Positions 18,702 through 63,534 of a DNA stretch of 64,000 nt are shown in pieces. The first letter of the stretch is position 1. The number at the start of each line of letters is the position of its first letter. The translations under genes and the position numbers were made by a program. Below the pieces are notes generated by a model. The model did not search any database, was not told the DNA's origin, and worked only from the letters and a program-made list of their open reading frames with translations. The DNA is from Ciceribacter thiooxidans. GTDB taxonomy: Bacteria; Pseudomonadota; Alphaproteobacteria; Rhizobiales; Rhizobiaceae. The DNA lies in assembly GCF_014126615.1 (NCBI RefSeq), contig NZ_CP059896.1:2862501-2926500 (forward strand). The letters run 5' to 3'.

Positions 18702-19178
18702 TTACGCAGAGGTATCAGTACCGCTGCCCGACGTCGAGGGCTTGCCGACCGTCACACCGACCGTGATGGGGATTTCCTTCCCGTCCGTGGTAGTCGCAAC
18801 CATCGTATCGGCATAGACGCGCACCGACTCGATGATGCCGGTATTCTTGCCGTCAGCGCTGGTGATCGTCTGGCCGATGTAGTTCGAGGCGGCGCTCAGC
18901 GCGTCGCCGGTGATCAGCGTTTCGAGTTTGGCATTGGTCTGGATCGTCTGCTCGACCTGAGAAAACGTCGCGAGCTGCGCGATCTGTTCCGTGGCGTCCA
19001 TCGGATCGGTCGGATCCTGGTTCTGCATCTGCGCGATCAGCAGCTTCAGGAAAGAGTTGTAGTCGAGAGACGCCGAGGCCGCGGCATCCGATGCCGACTT
19101 GTCGTTGGCCGCCGCAGTCTTGGTGGTCGACGCGGCATTGTTCGTACCCGTCGCAGCATTCACCGCGTTTACCGCCAT
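18702..19178 (-). CDS. flgD: Hook-capping protein FlgD
   Basis: 158 aa. FlgD is the scaffold that caps the growing hook and is needed for FlgE polymerisation. The N-terminal signature [22 protein letters not shown] followed by [10 protein letters not shown] is unmistakable. The protein is shorter than enterobacterial FlgD (about 230 aa): the C-terminal domain is reduced to about 70 residues ending in a Gly/Ser/Thr-rich tail, common in rhizobia. Its start overlaps the flbT stop by 10 bases. Confidence 0.95.
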
Positions 19179-19618
19179 GGTGCGATCTCCTTGCGAATCT
19201 GCTCCACCGTCGCCGGTGTGATCTCCTGGCTGTTGAGGATGCGATCCTCGATCGGATAGAGGCCGCGGATCGCCTTCAGGGCGTCAAAGGCGCGGCCGGA
19301 GGTGACCATGCCGTCGATGCGCTTCAGTTCCGCCAGAACCTCCTCGTTCTGGAAACAGGCAAGCAGCATGGTGATCGACTTGCGGAACATGGTCATCGAC
19401 TGTTCGCGACCTTCCGGATTGATCAGCATCATCTGTGCGATGAAATAGAGCTGCCGAAGCGGGGTCGTCGCGTCTTCCGGCTGCAGGACGTGGTTTTCGA
19501 GCAGGAAGGTGACGTCGTTGAGGAACTCCAGCGCGACCTTGCGGTCGACACGCAGCACTGCGCCGTTGATGAAGATGCGTTCCCCGGATTTGAGAGAGAT
19601 GCGCAGTGTACTTTTCAT
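19169..19618 (-). CDS. flbT: Flagellin synthesis regulator FlbT
   Basis: 149 aa, the FlbT family of alphaproteobacteria. The opening [20 protein letters not shown] and the central NPEGREQSM are characteristic. In Caulobacter, FlbT binds the 5' untranslated region of flagellin mRNA and lowers its translation and stability until the hook is complete; in Brucella and rhizobia it can act positively. It is coupled to flaF by a 4-base ATGA overlap and lies 10.5 kb from the flagellin genes, whose leaders carry a conserved structure that could be its target. Confidence 0.95.
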
Positions 19619-19962
19619 TTCAGTCCATCCCTGATGATGGTTGTCACGTCTATTATGCTCTGAAAGTTGTTGGACTCACGCTTCCTGATCCGATCGCATT
19701 CCTTCAAGATCCAGATGGCGATGGAAATCAGATTGGCGCGCAGCTCCGCCCCGAGTTCGTTCTCGGGCTGCTTCAAATCCTCGATGAGACGGATCCAGAC
19801 TCGACGCGTATAGAAGAGCGCCTCGATGGCATTACGGGAGTACTCCCCGTCGTCGCGCGCCTTTTCGAGCAGTTCGATCGAGCGCGACAGCGCCTGCCGT
19901 TCACGGTCCTTGGCGTTCGCGACGTCATCTTCCATGATCTCGGCATATGTGAACTGATACAT
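19615..19962 (-). CDS. flaF: Flagellin synthesis regulator FlaF
   Basis: 115 aa FlaF family. It starts [21 protein letters not shown] and is helical throughout, with the conserved block [21 protein letters not shown]. FlaF is needed for flagellin production or secretion in Caulobacter and acts in the same pathway as FlbT, possibly as a flagellin chaperone. It is translationally coupled to flbT and lies 37 bases after flgL, matching the order flgK-flgL-flaF-flbT seen across Rhizobiales. Confidence 0.95.
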
Positions 19963-30164: not shown

Positions 30165-31130
30165 TTACTTGAAGAGGGTCAGAATGTTCTGTGCGTTGGT
30201 GTTGGCGATCGACAGCGCCTGAATGCCGAGCTGCTGCTGCGTCTGGAGCGCCTTCAGCCTCGTCGATTCCTCGTTCATGTCGGCATCGACGAGTCGGCCC
30301 ACGCCCTTGTCGATCACGTCCATGAGGTTGGAGACGAACTGGTCCTGCATGTCGATGCGCTTGGTGATCGCGCCGAGGGTGGAGGCGGAATTCGTCAGCT
30401 GCTCGAGCAGGTCCGAGACGACGCTGATCATGTCGTCCATGACGGCATCCGTGGTGGTGCCGTCGATCTTGATTTCCGTGCCGGTGGCTGGCGTCGTCGA
30501 GCCGACATCGAGGAGAAAATAGTTGCGCGGGGTCGTGGTCGGGCTCGCCATCAGCGCATCGGCATCGATATCCTTGGTGAGGATGCCTCGTCCGGCATCG
30601 ACGGTGTCGATCAGCACCGACTGGGTGGTGTCGAAATCGAGCGTCGTCACCTGAACGGTTCCGTCCGTCGCACGAACGAAGGAGGAGACGACCTGCTTGG
30701 TGCCAAGTGCCGCGGAATTCGTGTTGTAGAGCCAGTTCTGGCCGGAGAAGGATGCGGACTGGGTGGTGGAGACGAGCTGGTTCTTGAGCTCCGTCATCTC
30801 CGCATTGATCTTCGCCTTGTCGACGCCAGGCTCCCTTGCCGCGACCAGCTTCGCCTTGATTTCGCTGAGCACGTGGATGACGTTGTCGAGCGCCGTATAG
30901 GCGGTGTCCACGGTTGCTGCACCGAGCCCCAGCGCGTCCGAAACCGTCGAGAGCGAGGAATTGTCCGACCGCATCGTCGTGGCAATGGACCAGTAGGCCG
31001 CATTGTCGGCAGCCGTCTCCACGCGGTAACCCGAGGACACGCGCCGCTGGGTCGTCTCCATGTTGTCGTCGATTGAGCGGAGAGTCTGAAGTGCCGCCAT
31101 GGCGGCAGCATTGGTCAGAATACTGGTCAT
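30165..31130 (-). CDS. flaC: Flagellin, shorter and more divergent copy
   Basis: 321 aa. It has conserved N-terminal (MTSILTNAAAMAALQTLRSID) and C-terminal (STRLKALQTQQQLGIQALSI) flagellin helices; the middle is about 85 residues shorter than in the other three copies and little related to them. In rhizobia complex filaments are built from a principal flagellin plus secondary ones, and the short copy is called flaC in S. meliloti. It is the last of four tandem flagellin genes, each apparently with its own promoter. Its leader has the shared hairpin and anti-SD box. Gene naming by order is inference. Confidence 0.9.
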   Translation of the reverse strand: MTSILTNAAAMAALQTLRSIDDNMETTQRRVSSGYRVETAADNAAYWSIATTMRSDNSSLSTVSDALGLGAATVDTAYTALDNVIHVLSEIKAKLVAAREPGVDKAKINAEMTELKNQLVSTTQSASFSGQNWLYNTNSAALGTKQVVSSFVRATDGTVQVTTLDFDTTQSVLIDTVDAGRGILTKDIDADALMASPTTTPRNYFLLDVGSTTPATGTEIKIDGTTTDAVMDDMISVVSDLLEQLTNSASTLGAITKRIDMQDQFVSNLMDVIDKGVGRLVDADMNEESTRLKALQTQQQLGIQALSIANTNAQNILTLFK

Positions 31131-31174
31131 AAGGGTGCCCTGTTCGCATCATGGGACATCCGGCGCCAAGCCGG
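31131..31174 (-). promoter_or_regulatory. flaC mRNA leader: hairpin plus anti-SD box
   Basis: In the mRNA sense, a CCGG-based stem (GCCGG 31170-31174 with CCGGC 31160-31164 on the plus strand) is followed by AUGUCCC (31153-31159). UGUCC is complementary (one G-U pair) to the GGGCA that overlaps the Shine-Dalgarno at 31136-31140. The loop is shorter than in the other three flagellin leaders (12 nt) and the pairing is 5 bp, so this is the weakest of the four. Confidence 0.5.
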
Positions 31175-31350
31175 CGGCGACAGGCGGGCATCATGCTGGC
31201 GGCTCCTGACCCGGAGCCACTCCGTCACCTGTTAACAAATCGTTAACAGGATCACTTAACAAAGACTTAACATGAATAGCAAGGGTTGTAGAGCCGAAGG
31301 ACCGCGAAAACGAAAAGGCGGCAAGCCTCGCGCAAGGTAGCAACGCAAAA

Positions 31351-31374
31351 GGCCGCGCCCCGAGGGGCGCGGCC
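31351..31374 (-). terminator. Rho-independent terminator of flaD
   Basis: GGCCGCGCCC and GGGCGCGGCC form a 10-11 bp GC-rich stem with a tight CGAG loop, 28 bases past the flaD stop. On the minus strand it is followed by TTTTGCGTTG. A textbook intrinsic terminator separating flaD from flaC. Confidence 0.88.
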
Positions 31375-31401
31375 GGTCTGTTCGACCAATCCTTTCCGCG
31401 A

Positions 31402-32622
31402 TCAGCGGAAGAGGGTCAGGATGTTCTGCGACGAAGAGTTGGCGATCGACAGCGACTGGACGGCGAGCTGCTGCTGGGTCTGCAGTGCCTTCAGGCGGGT
31501 CGATTCTTCGTTCAGGTCGGCGTCGACGAGACGGCCGACACCCTTGTCGATGGAGTCCGTCAGGCTGGCGACGAATTCCTGCTGCATGTCGATCCGCATG
31601 CCGATCGAGCCGAGCTGGGCGGCAGCGCTGGTCATGGACTTCAGAGCAGTGTCGACCATCGACAAGAGGCCGGCGAGCTCTGTCTTCGTGGTGGTGTTGG
31701 TGATCGTGAAGCTGTCAACCGACATGGCCGTTGAACCGGCGGTGTCGGCAACGTTGATCTGCCATTCGAAGCCGCTCGCGTCGGTCGCGAAGACTTCCTG
31801 GGTGGAGTTGACGGCCGCATTCTGTTCGGTCGCGGCGACCCAGGTATCCGAGCCAATCATGACGTAACCGATGCCGGCGCCGGAACCGTCACCGGGCACC
31901 GTCCAAGCGATGCTGCCGCCGGCGTCGAAGGCGCCACCGGCACCCGTGACGGCTGCACTGACCTGCGCCGTCGTGTAGGAATTCAAGTTGTACGAGGCGG
32001 TCACACCGCCATTGTTGACGTTGACGACAACGCCGTCGCCGGCAATGTTGGTGGTCTGGTCGAGCAGACCGGTGTTGCCGTTGGTGTCGAACAGGACATT
32101 CGAAGCGGTCAGCGTATAGTCGACCTTCTTGACCGACACGGCGCCCGAGGAGTCGCGGACGAAGGACGCGACGACACTCTTGTTGATATCAGCGGGGAGA
32201 CCGCCGGTCAGCTTGGCCTGCAGCCAGTTCTCGCCCGAGAAGGAAGCCGCTTCAGCAATCGAGGTCAGCTGATCCTGGAGCTGGGTGATTTCTTCCTGGA
32301 TCTTGGTCTTGTCGACGCCGTCTTCAGTGGCGGCGGTCAGCTTGGCCTTGATTTCCTTGACGACCTCGATCGCGGAGTTCATGCCTGAATAGGCCGTGTC
32401 GACCTTGGCAGCGCCGAGACCGAGAGCGTCTTCGACAGCCGACAGGGCCATGTTGTCGGAACGCATGGTGGTCGCGATAGACCAGTAGGCGGCGTTGTCG
32501 GAAGCAGAGCCGACGCGCAGGCCCGAAGACACTGCCGCCTGGGTCTGCTCGAGCCCGGACTCGATGGAGCGAAGGGTCGAGAGCGCGGCCATCGCCGCGA
32601 CGTTGGTAAGAATGCTGGTCAT
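31402..32622 (-). CDS. flaD: Flagellin
   Basis: 406 aa, same length as the next two copies and alignable with them over the whole length. N-terminus MTSILTNVAAMAALSTLRSI, C-terminus QQLAVQSLSIANSSSQNILTLF. The central part (about residues 180-300) is Gly/Ala/Thr/Val-rich and differs in scattered residues from flaB and flaA. Flagellins polymerise into the helical filament after export through the type III apparatus. Flanked by strong terminators at 31351 and 32876, so it is a single-gene transcript. The name follows the S. meliloti order flaA-flaB-flaD-flaC and is inference. Confidence 0.93.
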   Translation of the reverse strand: MTSILTNVAAMAALSTLRSIESGLEQTQAAVSSGLRVGSASDNAAYWSIATTMRSDNMALSAVEDALGLGAAKVDTAYSGMNSAIEVVKEIKAKLTAATEDGVDKTKIQEEITQLQDQLTSIAEAASFSGENWLQAKLTGGLPADINKSVVASFVRDSSGAVSVKKVDYTLTASNVLFDTNGNTGLLDQTTNIAGDGVVVNVNNGGVTASYNLNSYTTAQVSAAVTGAGGAFDAGGSIAWTVPGDGSGAGIGYVMIGSDTWVAATEQNAAVNSTQEVFATDASGFEWQINVADTAGSTAMSVDSFTITNTTTKTELAGLLSMVDTALKSMTSAAAQLGSIGMRIDMQQEFVASLTDSIDKGVGRLVDADLNEESTRLKALQTQQQLAVQSLSIANSSSQNILTLFR

Positions 32623-32683
32623 TTAGTTTGTGCCCCTTGGCGACTGAAAAATTGACAGGGACATTCCGGAAATCCACCGGGAA
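32623..32683 (-). promoter_or_regulatory. flaD mRNA leader: hairpin plus anti-SD box
   Basis: In the mRNA sense, UUCCCGG / CCGGAA (plus-strand 32677-32683 and 32664-32669) can form a stem with one bulged C. Then comes AUGUCCC, whose UGUCCC (32658-32663) pairs with GGGGCA (32631-32636) within the Shine-Dalgarno AAGGGGCA. That is 6 bp with one G-U pair and a 21-nt loop. The element starts 41 bases upstream of the ATG. Upstream, GCATCATGC (32694-32702) and GATGCTTC...GTTAAC (32741-32771) are shared with flaB. Confidence 0.6.
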
Positions 32684-32875
32684 CGGATCTTCTGCATCAT
32701 GCATATCGACATCGCAGCAGCTGCGGTCGACCTCCCGTTCGATGCTTCAAGACTAAGCTGACGTAGTTAACGGGAAGTGAAATAGGCATAAAAAAACGAG
32801 AAAAATACTTACGATACTTTGTAATACTTACTTAACCGAAGTTACCGTTTTCTTAATAGGCGCCAAATGCAAAAA
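32684..32875 (-). promoter_or_regulatory. flaD promoter region
   Basis: The gap between flaD and flaB is 326 bases. This part holds the presumptive flaD promoter: GCATCATGC at 32694-32702 and GATGCTTC at 32741 to GTTAAC ending at 32771, both at matching distance in front of flaB. The rest (32772-32875) is AT-rich with no reading frame of note. No sigma-28 consensus was recognised. Confidence 0.5.
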
Positions 32876-32897
32876 GCCGCGCTCGTTTGAGCGCGGC
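32876..32897 (-). terminator. Rho-independent terminator of flaB
   Basis: GCCGCGCTC / GAGCGCGGC, a 9-bp perfect stem with the loop GTTT, flanked by A5 on the left and T4 on the right. It should therefore work on both strands. It lies 52 bases past the flaB stop. Confidence 0.9.
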
Positions 32898-32948
32898 TTT
32901 TCATCATGAATTGTCCGAGGCGGCACGCGCCGCCTGGCCGGGATAGTT

Positions 32949-34169
32949 TTACTTGAAGAGGGTCAGAATGTTCTGCGAAGCGGTGTTGGCGATCGACAGC
33001 GACTGGACGGCGAGCTGCTGCTGGGTCTGCAGTGCCTTCAGGCGAGTCGATTCCTCGTTCATGTCGGCATCGACGAGACGGCCGACGCCCTTGTCGATGG
33101 AGTCCGTCAGGCTGGCGACGAATTCCTGCTGCATGTCGATCCGCATGCCGATCGAACCGAGCTGGGCGGCAGCGCTGGTCATGGTTTCAAGCGCAGAGTC
33201 GACCATCGAAAGCAGACCCGCGATCTCGGTGCTCGTCGTGGTATTGTCGATCGTGAAGGTATCGACCGACATTGCCGTGGATGTAGCGCCCGCCGTGGTA
33301 TCGATCTGCCACTCGAAGCCAGAAGCGTCGGTCGCGAAGACTTCCTGCGTGGAGTTGACGGCCGCGTTCTGTTCCGTGGCGGCAACCCAGGTGTCGTTTG
33401 CCACCTTGACGAAGCCGACGCCGGCGCCGGCGCCGTCGCCAGCAATCGTCCAGGCAATGTTGCCGCCCGCGTCGAAGGCGCCGCCAGCACCCGTGACAGC
33501 CGCGCTGACCTGAGCCGTCGTGTACTTGACGACGTTGTAAGAACCGGTAACGCCGGCGATGTTCACGTTGACGACGACGCCGTCGCCGGCAATGTTGGTG
33601 GTCTGGTCGAGGATACCGGTGTTGCCGTTCGTGTCGAAGAGCACGTTCGTGCTGTCCAGCGTGTAGTCGACCTTCTTGACCGACACAGCGCCTGAGGAGT
33701 CGCGGACGAACGACGCGACGACGCTCTTGTTGATGTCGGACGGCAGAGCGCCGGTGAGCTTGGCCTGCAGCCAGTTCTCACCCGAGAAGGACGCGGCCTC
33801 GGCAATGCTGCGCAACTGGTCCTGAAGCTGGGTGATTTCTTCCTGGATCTTGGTCTTGTCAACGCCGTCTTCGCTGGCGGCAGTGAGCTTGGCCTTGATG
33901 TCCTTGACGACTTCGATGGCCGAGTTCATGCCGGAATAGGCTGTGTCGATCTTGGCGGCGCCGAGGCCGAGAGCATCCTGAACCGCCGAAAGGGCCATGT
34001 TGTCGGAACGCATGGTGGTCGCGATCGACCAGTAAGCCGCGTTGTCCGATGCGCCGCCGACACGAAGACCCGAGGAGACACGCGCCTGGGTCTGCTGCAT
34101 GTCGGAGTCGATGGAGCGGAGGGTCTGGAGTGCGGCCATTGCCGCAACGTTGGTAAGAATGCTGGTCAT
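32949..34169 (-). CDS. flaB: Flagellin
   Basis: 406 aa. It is very close to the flaD product over its full length: N-terminus MTSILTNVAAMAALQTLRSI, C-terminus AVQSLSIANTASQNILTLF. Differences concentrate in the surface-exposed middle part (for example VNIAGVTGSYNVVKYTT and AGDGAGAGVGFVKVANDTW). It starts 245 bases from flaA and carries its own leader and terminator. Together with flaA and flaD it should form the ribbed complex filament typical of Sinorhizobium. Naming by order. Confidence 0.93.
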   Translation of the reverse strand: MTSILTNVAAMAALQTLRSIDSDMQQTQARVSSGLRVGGASDNAAYWSIATTMRSDNMALSAVQDALGLGAAKIDTAYSGMNSAIEVVKDIKAKLTAASEDGVDKTKIQEEITQLQDQLRSIAEAASFSGENWLQAKLTGALPSDINKSVVASFVRDSSGAVSVKKVDYTLDSTNVLFDTNGNTGILDQTTNIAGDGVVVNVNIAGVTGSYNVVKYTTAQVSAAVTGAGGAFDAGGNIAWTIAGDGAGAGVGFVKVANDTWVAATEQNAAVNSTQEVFATDASGFEWQIDTTAGATSTAMSVDTFTIDNTTTSTEIAGLLSMVDSALETMTSAAAQLGSIGMRIDMQQEFVASLTDSIDKGVGRLVDADMNEESTRLKALQTQQQLAVQSLSIANTASQNILTLFK

Positions 34170-34229
34170 TGAGAAAGTTGCCCCTTGGTTGGCGGTGTAT
34201 GAAAAGGGACATTCCGGTCGCGCCGGGAA
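34170..34229 (-). promoter_or_regulatory. flaB mRNA leader: hairpin plus anti-SD box
   Basis: In the mRNA sense, UUCCCGG / CCGGAA (plus-strand 34223-34229 and 34212-34217) frames a five-base loop. AUGUCCC follows, whose UGUCCC (34206-34211) pairs with GGGGCA (34179-34184) in the Shine-Dalgarno AAGGGGCA. That is 6 bp with one G-U pair and a 21-nt loop. GCATCATGC lies just upstream at 34239-34247. Confidence 0.6.
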
Positions 34230-34344
34230 CGACGGTCAGCATCATGCCTGCTAACAGGTTATTAGGAAGTGTTAACCCGTCGTTGCGATGCTTCCATCTA
34301 GCTTAAACATGGTTAACAACTGCTAAACGCAAGTTGACAAAAAA

Positions 34345-34370
34345 CATGCCGCGCCCGGGGACGCGGCATG
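34345..34370 (-). terminator. Rho-independent terminator of flaA
   Basis: CATGCCGCG / CGCGGCATG, a 9-bp perfect stem with the loop CCCGGGGA, followed on the minus strand by TTTTTTGTC. It lies 44 bases past the flaA stop and separates flaA from flaB. Confidence 0.92.
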
Positions 34371-34414
34371 CTCGAAGTTTCAGGACTGCCGGGAAACCCC
34401 GGTCATCCGGCCGA

Positions 34415-35635
34415 TCAGCGGAACAGCGACAGAACGTTCTGCGACGAAGAGTTGGCGATCGACAGCGACTGGATGGCGAGCTGCTGCTGGGTCTGCAGTG
34501 CCTTCAGGCGGGTCGATTCCTCGTTCAGGTCAGCATCGACGAGACGGCCGATACCCTTGTCGATCGAATCAGTCAGGTTGGAGATGAACTCTTCCTGGAT
34601 GCCGATTCGCGAGTTCAGCGAGCCGAGCTGGGAGGCGGCGCTGGTCATCGACTTCAGAGCGGTGTCGACCATCGACAGCAGGCCCGAAAGCTGGGTCGCG
34701 GTCGTGGTGTTGTCGATCGTGAAGTCCGAGACAGACATGGCCGTCGACGTGGCAGTGTCGGCCGTGTTGATCTGCCACTCGTTGCCACCGGCGTCGGTCG
34801 CGAAGACTTCCTGCGTCGCGTTGGCGCCGGAGTTCTGCTCCGTCGCGGCAACCCAAGTGTCGTCGGCGATCTTGACGTAACCGACACCTGCGCCGGCGCC
34901 GTCGGAGGCCACAGTCCATGCGATGCTGCCGCCGGCATCGAAGCCGCCGCTTGCAGCAGTCACGGCTGCGCTAACCTGCGCCGTCGTGTAGGACTTCAGG
35001 TTGTGCGAAGTGGTCACACCGCCGTCGTTGACGTTGACGACAACGCCATCACCGTTGACGTTGGTGGTCTGGTCGAGAATGCCGGTGTTGCCGTTGGTGT
35101 CGAACAGAACGTTCGAAGCCGTCAGCGTATAGTCGACCTTCTTGACCGATACCGCGCCCGCAGCGTCACGAACGAAGGAAGCGACGATGCTCTTGTCGGT
35201 GTCGGAAGCAAGGCCGCCAGTCAGCTTGGCCTGCAGCCAGTTCTCGCCCGAGAAGGAAGCCGCTTCGGCAATCGAGCCCAGCTGGTCCTGGAGCTGCGAG
35301 ATTTCTTCCTGGATCTTGGTCTTGTCGACGCCGTCTTCGGTGGCGGCAGTCAGCTTGGCCTTGATTTCCTTGACGACGTCGATCGCGGCGTTCATGCCGG
35401 AATAGGCCGTGTCGACCTTGGCAGCGCCGAGACCGAGGGCATCCTGGACGGCCGACAGAGAGGCGTTGTCGGAACGCATGGTGGTCGCGATAGACCAGTA
35501 AGCGGCGTTATCCGAAGCACCGCCGACACGAAGACCCGAAGAAATGCGCGACTGGGTGTCGTCCAGGCTGGCGGAGATGGAACGGAGGGTGGACAGTGCA
35601 GCCATTGCGCTGCCGTTGGTAAGAATACTGCTCAT
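34415..35635 (-). CDS. flaA: Flagellin, principal copy by position
   Basis: 406 aa, alignable end to end with flaB and flaD. N-terminus MSSILTNGSAMAALSTLRSI, slightly different from the other copies; C-terminus QSLSIANSSSQNVLSLFR. In S. meliloti the first gene of this tandem, flaA, encodes the principal flagellin, without which no functional filament forms, while the others are secondary. That ranking is transferred by position only. Own promoter, own leader with the shared regulatory structure, own terminator. Confidence 0.93.
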   Translation of the reverse strand: MSSILTNGSAMAALSTLRSISASLDDTQSRISSGLRVGGASDNAAYWSIATTMRSDNASLSAVQDALGLGAAKVDTAYSGMNAAIDVVKEIKAKLTAATEDGVDKTKIQEEISQLQDQLGSIAEAASFSGENWLQAKLTGGLASDTDKSIVASFVRDAAGAVSVKKVDYTLTASNVLFDTNGNTGILDQTTNVNGDGVVVNVNDGGVTTSHNLKSYTTAQVSAAVTAASGGFDAGGSIAWTVASDGAGAGVGYVKIADDTWVAATEQNSGANATQEVFATDAGGNEWQINTADTATSTAMSVSDFTIDNTTTATQLSGLLSMVDTALKSMTSAASQLGSLNSRIGIQEEFISNLTDSIDKGIGRLVDADLNEESTRLKALQTQQQLAIQSLSIANSSSQNVLSLFR

Positions 35636-35694
35636 TGAGGTGTCCCCTTGGAAACTAGATACATTGGAGGGACATGCCGGATTACCTACCGGCA
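35636..35694 (-). promoter_or_regulatory. flaA mRNA leader: hairpin plus anti-SD box
   Basis: In the mRNA sense, UGCCGG / CCGGCA (plus-strand 35689-35694 and 35675-35680) is a perfect 6-bp stem with an 8-base loop. Directly after it comes UGUCCC (35669-35674), perfectly complementary to the GGGACA (35641-35646) that begins inside the Shine-Dalgarno AAGGGGACA. The loop is 22 nt. The ATG is 5 bases past the pairing region. This is the strongest of the four flagellin leaders. Confidence 0.65.
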
Positions 35695-35960
35695 GAGGCG
35701 GACGACGTCATGTCAATTAATTTTCGTTTGAATTAATCCGTCTCTGGAGCAGCATCAAACAGCACGGATTTTAACGTCGCCTGAACCCGACTGGTTAAGA
35801 AACCGTTATACGGCACTTTTCCGGTACCTGGCGGGATATTTCTCGCAAGTCACTGAAATTTCGTTATATTTTCTTCGAATTGGACCTGACGGCGGCACTC
35901 ACGGGTTAACCATGATCGCCGCGCGGCGGAAACAGTGCATGCCGCGCGGGGCAAGAACGC
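35695..35960 (-). promoter_or_regulatory. flaA promoter region and fliP 3' flank
   Basis: Together with the leader this is a 325-base gap. The stretch 35715-35736 carries AATTAA and AATTAAT in inverted order around TTTTCGTTTG, about 80-100 bases upstream of the flaA ATG. The part 35740-35910 is AT-rich without a gene. Near 35910-35950 the self-complementary CCGCGCGG occurs twice, which could form a hairpin after fliP (stop at 35961). No consensus sigma-28 or sigma-54 promoter was recognised. Confidence 0.4.
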
Positions 35961-63148: not shown

Positions 63149-63534
63149 GACAATATTCCTCGCTGAGGTCCGGCATGGGGCCGGACGGACTGAAATGGTC
63201 CCGGGTTGTCTTGAGTGTCTGCGAACTCACGCCACGTCGCGGAAGAGCGGGCTCTCGCCCACATCCACCGAAGACTGTTCCCTGAACTGCTTCAATGAAA
63301 AGGACATACCGGACCGAGACCGGTACGACGGGCTGGCGTCATGCCTCGAAGGGATTCACGGCCGACGGAATCCCATTCCGACGTATCCACCAATCTTTAT
63401 GGTTAATTGGTTGCTCTAAGGTTAACAAAATCCTTCCGGCGGAATCCACCGTTCCCCGGCACCATAGATGCGGCTCCGGCAGGAACAAAAGCCGCAAGCC
63501 CGCATTTCGCCCGTATCGAGACGGAGGATTTGTC
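63149..63534. promoter_or_regulatory. Divergent promoter region of icpA and ku
   Basis: A 386-base gap between the divergent starts of icpA (minus) and ku (plus). It should hold the promoter of the che operon at the left side and that of ku at the right. GGTTAATTGGTTGCTCTAAGGTTAAC at 63399-63425 contains two GGTTAA copies on the plus strand. I see no further gene; short reading frames here show no family features. Confidence 0.45.

Follow-up and report, generated by a model that had tools for sequence, protein, structure and literature searches.

A conserved flagellin leader RNA element in the Rhizobiaceae and related families and its association with a clade of FlbT proteins

How the synthesis of flagellin is governed at the level of the message is the question raised by four flagellin genes arranged in tandem on the minus strand of a 64,000-nucleotide (nt) stretch of Ciceribacter thiooxidans DNA (hereafter the window; positions 2862501-2926500 of contig 1 of a 5.04 Mb genome). 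The genes flaA (34415..35635), flaB (32949..34169), flaD (31402..32622) and flaC (30165..31130), each with the Pfam domains Flagellin_N and Flagellin_C, are preceded by leaders carrying a short hairpin, the sequence AUGUCCC and a Shine-Dalgarno (SD) sequence. Further along the same window, as a preliminary description of the sequence had stated, are encoded FlbT (19169..19618, minus strand; PF07378), a candidate trans-acting regulator, and its partner FlaF (19615..19962, minus strand; PF07309). That description had proposed that the SD of each leader is either free or covered by the UGUCCC box, with the hairpin as a possible recognition site for FlbT. The leaders constitute a real, conserved RNA element which is not listed in Rfam 15, FlbT-controlled flagellin leaders being already known as a kind. 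It is read here, with a probability of about 0.45 and hence somewhat short of even, as a leader RNA acting in cis on flagellin genes of the lateral-type flagellar system in the Rhizobiaceae and related families, closed by default and opened by the lateral-type FlbT, of which direct contact with FlbT, opening of the SD and coupling to flagellar assembly are putative parts.

In the order of the mRNA, all four leaders show CCGG-loop-CCGG, AUGUCCC and a G-rich SD (GGGACA, GGGGCA or GGGCA); the positions and order given in the preliminary description agree with the sequence, as do the spacers of 22, 21 and 21 nt between box and SD in flaA, flaB and flaD. All features lie on the minus strand. The flaA leader has the promoter-like motif ACATGACGT (35705..35713) 21 nt 5' of the CCGG of hairpin 1 (UGCCGG/CCGGCA, 35675..35694), followed by the predicted anti-SD box UGUCCC (35669..35674) and the SD arm GGGACA (35641..35646). 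The promoter-like motif reads GCATGATGC in the other three leaders. That of flaB (34239..34247) is followed by hairpin 1 with its CCGG core (34214..34226), the UGUCCC box (34206..34211) and the SD arm GGGGCA (34179..34184); that of flaD (32694..32702) by hairpin 1 with the same core (32666..32680), the box (32658..32663) and the SD arm GGGGCA (32631..32636); and that of flaC (31188..31196) by hairpin 1, again with a CCGG core (31160..31174), and a UGUCCC box (31153..31158).

When folded alone, the leaders of flaA, flaB and flaD form both hairpin 1 and a second hairpin (stem 2) between the box and the SD, the ensemble probability of CCC:GGG pairing being 0.99, 0.99 and 0.98, respectively, in folds ending at the AUG. 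Adding 30-60 nt of coding sequence leaves this probability at 0.96-0.98 for flaA and flaB, the range over all folds being 0.98-0.99 for flaA and 0.96-0.99 for flaB, and lowers it to 0.03-0.07 for flaD. The flaC leader, to which a box-SD pairing of 5 base pairs (bp) had been ascribed, gives a probability of 0.00 in all three folds (leader alone and with coding sequence), and its lowest-energy fold pairs the SD with a more upstream UGCCC instead of the box. By a second measure, the probability of an SD 5-mer being unpaired, the values are 0.40 for flaA, 0.05 for flaB, 0.76 for flaD and 0.21 for flaC. The predicted anti-SD pairing is good in two leaders, those of flaA and flaB, holds in flaD on condition that coding sequence is left out and lacks support in flaC, and therefore the earlier claim of four equal leaders is too strong; the feature common to all four is hairpin 1.

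To place these leaders among their relatives, 365 distinct flagellin leaders (316 of them at the family level) were collected from the window, its relatives and 78 named loci; individual leaders and genomes are referred to below by L and G numbers. The leader table includes one internal mis-hit (L027_1_1992) and one incomplete row (L001_-1_25). A less biased set comprises the 281 leaders chosen only by a promoter-like motif and a start codon, and since many leaders are related, the counts are not independent trials. The promoter-like motif [ACG]CATGANG[CT], given as GCATGANGC for the four window leaders and relatives, stands upstream of many collected leaders. Hairpin 1 occurs at the expected place in 263 of the 281 motif-chosen leaders as against 3.4% of shuffled sequences. 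Of these 263, 187 possess a UGUCC box; the SD zone of 182 of the 187 contains GGG, and 169 carry GGGRCR. Box and SD arm are separated by 18-23 nt, a distance near 20 nt, in 145 of 170 leaders. The computed layout is thus fixed: promoter-like motif, 21-22 nt, hairpin 1 with its CCGG stem, the adjoining UGUCCC, about 20 nt, and an SD with a pairable GGGRCA. Named rhizobia carrying the element include Sinorhizobium saheli (L117) and Ensifer adhaerens (L148).

Pairing was examined in both stems. After deduplication to 111 leaders, the pair beside the CCGG core is formed in 60.4% as compared to 36.2% on permutation (0/5000) and is A-U, G-C, U-A, C-G or G-U depending on the leader, while the next pair outward shows nothing beyond composition. 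For stem 2, the pairing claimed in the preliminary description stands in part. Cognate boxes and SDs pair better than permuted ones (13.4 vs 11.9, 0/2000, n = 111), and weakly so among the leaders with variant boxes (9.0 vs 7.9, p = 0.03, n = 41). A few compensated variants were found, namely UGUUCCC/GGGGACA (L027), UGUUCCA/UGGGGCA (L167), CUCG/CGAG (L088) and ACUCA/UGAGU (L194), and the variant UGCCCUU/AAGGGGCA of L189 has its like in L138, L143, L147 and L168. Of the 365 leaders, 201 match a CCGG/CCGG/UGUC pattern, and 72 of these remain in an alignment (A2) after thinning at 80% identity; because the rows were selected by pattern, the CCGG and the first positions of the box cannot vary in it. 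In it the third pair of stem 2 alternates between U-G and U-A, with a covariation score above all 500 shuffles. On these sequences the anti-SD core is mostly invariant, conservation of sequence outweighing covariation, with a few compensated variants. In three leaders of one genome (L380, L399 and L404 of G149), preceding flagellins with identical N-termini, the loops differ and the predicted folds keep the SD stem and extend it inwards.

A covariance model, R1, was built from the same 72 leaders, and because these leaders were selected by pattern, some circularity attaches to the counts in genomes that are seed donors. With this reservation, of the 32 family genomes that bear flagellin (one per genus, that of C. 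thiooxidans included, many being seed donors), 27 have R1 matches at E < 1e-5 upstream of flagellins. The misses are G001, G018, G033, G034 and G038, for which a whole-genome search under stricter filters gave no flagellin-leader match at E <= 1e-3; the lone match among the five, in G038, is not before a flagellin. All 10 genomes of the same genus gave matches in loci containing no exact seed row, and a flagellin start lies directly downstream in 25 of the 27 newly fetched loci, the two exceptions being L330, near a contig end, and L321 (G046, 22.8 bits), not before a flagellin. A structured leader that can sequester the SD is thus kept in related genomes, which supports that part of the preliminary description. 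Among 77 loci of other families, E < 1e-5 is reached only in G041, G067, G069, G074, G075, G084 and G086, of which all except G086 gave seeds.

The strong R1 matches are flagellin leaders and one chemoreceptor leader. In the genome carrying the window, the ranking is flaB, flaD, flaA, a fifth copy at 63262..63328, and flaC (5.1e-4), with noise close behind at 0.0026. The four copies described earlier are all present, and this fifth one (minus strand; 30.6-30.7 bits, E = 1.1e-7 genome-wide) had not been listed. It lies 5' of an open reading frame for a protoglobin-containing methyl-accepting chemotaxis protein (icpA-like), with a promoter-like motif GCATGACGC (63336..63344, minus strand) 21 nt 5' of its CCGG; copy and motif together (63262-63344) stand about 110 nt 5' of this reading frame, which is no flagellin. 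A fifth flagellin gene of the same genome, outside the window (L004, contig 1, near 3208776), has no CCGG/UGUCCC leader, and its upstream sequence CATGACGATGC resembles the promoter-like motif. No family of Rfam 15 matches the window at its gathering score and none is credible below it at the leaders. RF01736 (flg-Rhizobiales) was rejected as an identity, its best match in this genome scoring 16.7 bits against a gathering score of 55. No description of the leader was found in those portions of the openly accessible literature that were seen.

The occurrence of the leader was compared with that of FlbT. A search of 80 genomes, 79 of them with flagellin, found FlbT in 70. A tree was made of 58 FlbT proteins; its bootstrap is unsettled, and two very long rows leave its other parts uncertain. 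In this tree one clade (100/100), on the longest inner branch shown (2.11), unites 23 of the 24 FlbTs that belong to systems with Rhizobiaceae-type flagellins; two odd rows (G059b and G121b) were kept in the tree and left out of the protein alignment A3. This clade is referred to as lateral-type, since we infer the flagellar systems of the genomes compared to be of that type. The R1 leader is present for 21 of its 23 members, and leader type largely follows FlbT clade, which accords with the link to FlbT drawn in the preliminary description. The 24th FlbT, that of G034, comes from the family of the window, falls outside the clade, and belongs to a genome whose flagellin leader (L074) has a CGUCAGAAAGACG hairpin instead; this family member, which combines an AGAA-loop leader with the other type of FlbT, amounts to a natural swap. 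G074, an 8.0 Mb genome with two flagellar systems, has leader-bearing flagellins near one FlbT and leaderless ones near the second. Within FlbT (window numbering), position 40 changes from Arg in 33/33 proteins outside the clade to Leu in 22/23 inside it, and position 43 from Asp in 32/33 to His in 21/23, making these two residues sequence-based candidates for a change of specificity. A search of PDB sequences with FlbT gave no convincing relative (best E 0.49).

The association was followed into a second family, that of G074, for which 46 genomes, 35 of them bearing FlbT, were all searched with R1, the FlbTs being classified without knowledge of the R1 outcome. R1 scores at least 34 bits in 8/8 genomes with a lateral-type FlbT, of which G074 is the sole seed donor. 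All 11 strong matches have the promoter-like motif, which in this family mostly reads AAAGGCATGANGCC, and all 11 leaders form two hairpins when the stretch from hairpin 1 to the AUG is folded; a flagellin start was recognised automatically in 9 of them. Among the other 38 genomes (27 with only the other FlbT and 11 without FlbT) none exceeds 24 bits, and 11 have weak matches at E <= 1e-3. The two strongest of these (G152, 23.3 bits; G168, 22.8 bits) are in genomes with the other FlbT type and lack both promoter-like motif and flagellin. They broke the prediction set beforehand at E <= 1e-4, which consequently held only with the wider gap in score.

These observations are consistent with a mechanism in which the message would be made closed or nearly closed, stem 2 covering the SD. 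The lateral-type FlbT, with FlaF, would recognise hairpin 1 and its flank and free the SD, and flagellin would be translated only while FlbT is free or active, so that its production would be tied to assembly. Where stem 2 is missing, as in flaC and some paralogues, hairpin 1 alone may serve as the FlbT site. That the window leader would be closed by default and opened by FlbT is argued from the stronger SD stem here and from reports of activation. Flagellin synthesis in B. melitensis is reported to be activated by FlbT; the Brucella protein has been proposed as an activator in a review that describes the mechanism as unresolved and the effect as opposite to that in Caulobacter (PMC4347634). 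LafA1 and LafA2 of B. diazoefficiens are reported to be translationally induced by FlbT (PMC8429497; Mongiardini et al. 2017), and flbT and flaF are reported among the genes hit when A. fabrum was screened for motility genes (PMC9812332).

Several observations weigh against this reading. Besides the conditional pairing in flaD and the failure of the box-SD pairing in flaC, many paralogues with changed boxes keep hairpin 1 without stem 2, and the family genomes G001, G018, G033 and G038 retain hairpin 1 and lose the box or the SD pairing. Predicted SD accessibility in this leader type is only moderately low, with a mean of 0.22 as against 0.33 when the upstream part is shuffled. Covariation in stem 2 is thin, the sequence of its core being conserved. 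Over the 72 leaders, two of the five measures of covariation do not rise above shuffles (double-change pairs, 292/500; further pair types, 126/500), and RNAalifold on the same alignment predicts the CCGG stem only. No covariation is seen at pair 4-28. The association C31-G66 was rejected as a proof of covariation, as it occurs in 5 leaders, or 1 after deduplication (Fisher p = 0.48). Two members of the lateral-type FlbT clade are without the R1 leader, G038 having hairpin 1 only and G062 neither recognised form. The agreement of leader and FlbT is no proof of contact, since each goes wherever the flagellar system as a whole goes. The Rhizobiaceae are reported to have no flagellum other than the lateral one (PMC6406911), so that a common history accounts for the agreement no less well than contact.

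The same leader and the same contact could serve the opposite sign of control, FlbT binding hairpin 1 and holding stem 2 shut, or speeding decay, until the hook is complete. The Caulobacter protein is reported to bind flagellin 5' untranslated regions (UTRs) and to repress flagellin translation together with a co-repressor, the flagellin paralogue FljJ (PMC7591256). Such repression is nevertheless unlikely here, as what is reported of FlbT in Brucella, in Agrobacterium and for the lateral flagella of Bradyrhizobium suggests activation or a need for the protein, and the non-Rhizobiaceae leaders examined (Caulobacter's own not among them) are of another type. The Caulobacter precedent may therefore mislead for the window leader, and a Caulobacter-like repression is probably wrong for it.

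An explanation without a dedicated trans factor, in which hairpin 1 is a 5' stabiliser and stem 2 sets a low, fixed rate of translation or protects the message until ribosomes load, likewise seems improbable. It draws on the position of hairpin 1, whose CCGG begins 21 or 22 nt after the promoter-like motif in 163 of the 188 family leaders having both, and which is therefore probably close to the 5' end of the transcript (for S. meliloti, mapped transcription starts are in print, PMC3616915). It also accommodates the retention of hairpin 1 where the box has changed, only 187 of the 263 leaders with hairpin 1 having UGUCC. It leaves unexplained why leader type follows FlbT clade and why AUGUCCC is conserved in sequence.

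Hairpins of comparable stability that cover the SD occur in RNA thermometers and in targets of small RNAs. Over the 169 leaders, which were chosen for their SD arm, stem 2 taken as a bare 6-bp stem has a mean of -6.05 kcal/mol, and the minimum free energy of the hairpin averages -8.1. An RNA sensor of another kind, with temperature, a small RNA or a small molecule in place of FlbT as its signal, could be built on such a stem; it is rendered quite improbable by the lack of an Rfam family at gathering score, or a credible one below, and by strong R1 matches that are confined to flagellin leaders and the one chemoreceptor leader.

The CCGG repeats, being self-complementary as DNA and at a fixed distance from the promoter-like motif, might also be taken for a DNA operator of class III promoters. 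The spacing of the half-sites nonetheless takes all values of 3-14 nt, the range searched, with 5 the commonest. An RNA hairpin fits better, since this loop length varies, the flank pair covaries with G-U pairs included, and a relative (L318) has the swapped stem CGGG/CCCG in place of CCGG/CCGG; an operator is accordingly very improbable. That AUGUCCC might start a regulatory leader peptide, a reading favoured by the A in front of UGUCC in 172 of 188 boxed leaders, was rejected for want of a common reading frame and is scarcely tenable, all three frames relative to the gene being used and 75 of the 172 entering the gene without a stop.

The reading of a closed leader opened by the lateral-type FlbT gains a wider setting from the flagellins of other families of the order and class, which often have hairpins with an AGRA loop, sometimes two with the second over the SD, e.g. 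CCUAGAAAGGA; the motif was defined in this analysis and not taken from print. With stems of at least 4 bp, at least one such hairpin occurs in 11/23 leaders of this other type and two in 6/23, as against 3.3% and 0% of shuffled sequences; 12/23 have none, and 0/81 leaders of the window's boxed type have any. With stems of at least 3 bp, for which no shuffled control was run, the hairpin is found near the SD in 23/34, upstream in 16/34 and at both places in 11/34. The SD-near AGRA hairpins average -1.5 kcal/mol vs -6.05 for the bare stem 2 of leaders chosen for their SD arm, and SD accessibility differs modestly, 0.33 in the other type and 0.22 in that of the window. Thirteen loci of both leader kinds gave no Rfam match. 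Six non-Rhizobiaceae flagellins (L097, L099, L103, L107, L202 and L208) have two AGRA-loop hairpins with the second over the SD, the first four being among those 13 loci. The double AGRA-loop hairpins are possibly the ancestral target of FlbT.

A broader and decidedly doubtful proposal is that the two leader types set the sign of FlbT action. The AGRA type (-1.5 kcal/mol) would be open and repressed by FlbT, the lateral type (-6.05 kcal/mol) would be closed and opened by the diverged FlbT clade, and regulator and target would have changed together as the lateral-type system arose. If this is true, two leader types may explain the opposite reports of FlbT as repressor and as activator. A compact RNA element in named rhizobia, together with a matching FlbT clade, offers a direct substrate for the study of FlbT action.

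Among known systems, RF01736 resembles the present leader as a Rhizobiales RNA motif whose name is that of a flagellar gene, and the genes around it are presumably flagellar. It differs in its 141 positions and the three stem-loops reported for it, and it is not among the matches at the window leaders. The FlbT-controlled 5' UTRs of C. crescentus (Anderson and Gober 2000; Ardissone et al. 2020) are, as reported, likewise flagellin leaders under post-transcriptional control, and FlbT and FlaF are encoded in the window as well. The reported sign of control differs. So do the non-Rhizobiaceae leaders examined, Caulobacter's own not among them, which often carry an AGRA loop with a weak SD hairpin and no CCGG and UGUCCC, in genomes whose FlbTs lie outside the lateral-type clade. 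In the CsrA-FliW system of Bacillus hag and Campylobacter flaA, a small RNA-binding protein is reported to act at GGA motifs, either in the loops of hairpins or over the SD, the system as a whole responding to flagellin export; here, GGA stands in the hairpin-1 loop of 4 of 111 leaders (that of flaD included), no search for csrA having been made. The present leader, if the proposed mechanism is true, would be a further case beside CsrA-FliW of export-coupled control of flagellin on a leader RNA. A likeness in sign is that of B. diazoefficiens, where FlbT is reported to induce the translation of LafA1 and LafA2, the comparison with its leaders being made through the reports on FlbT. As a counterpart to LafA, the two-system genome G074 bears the element before the flagellins near its lateral-type FlbT.

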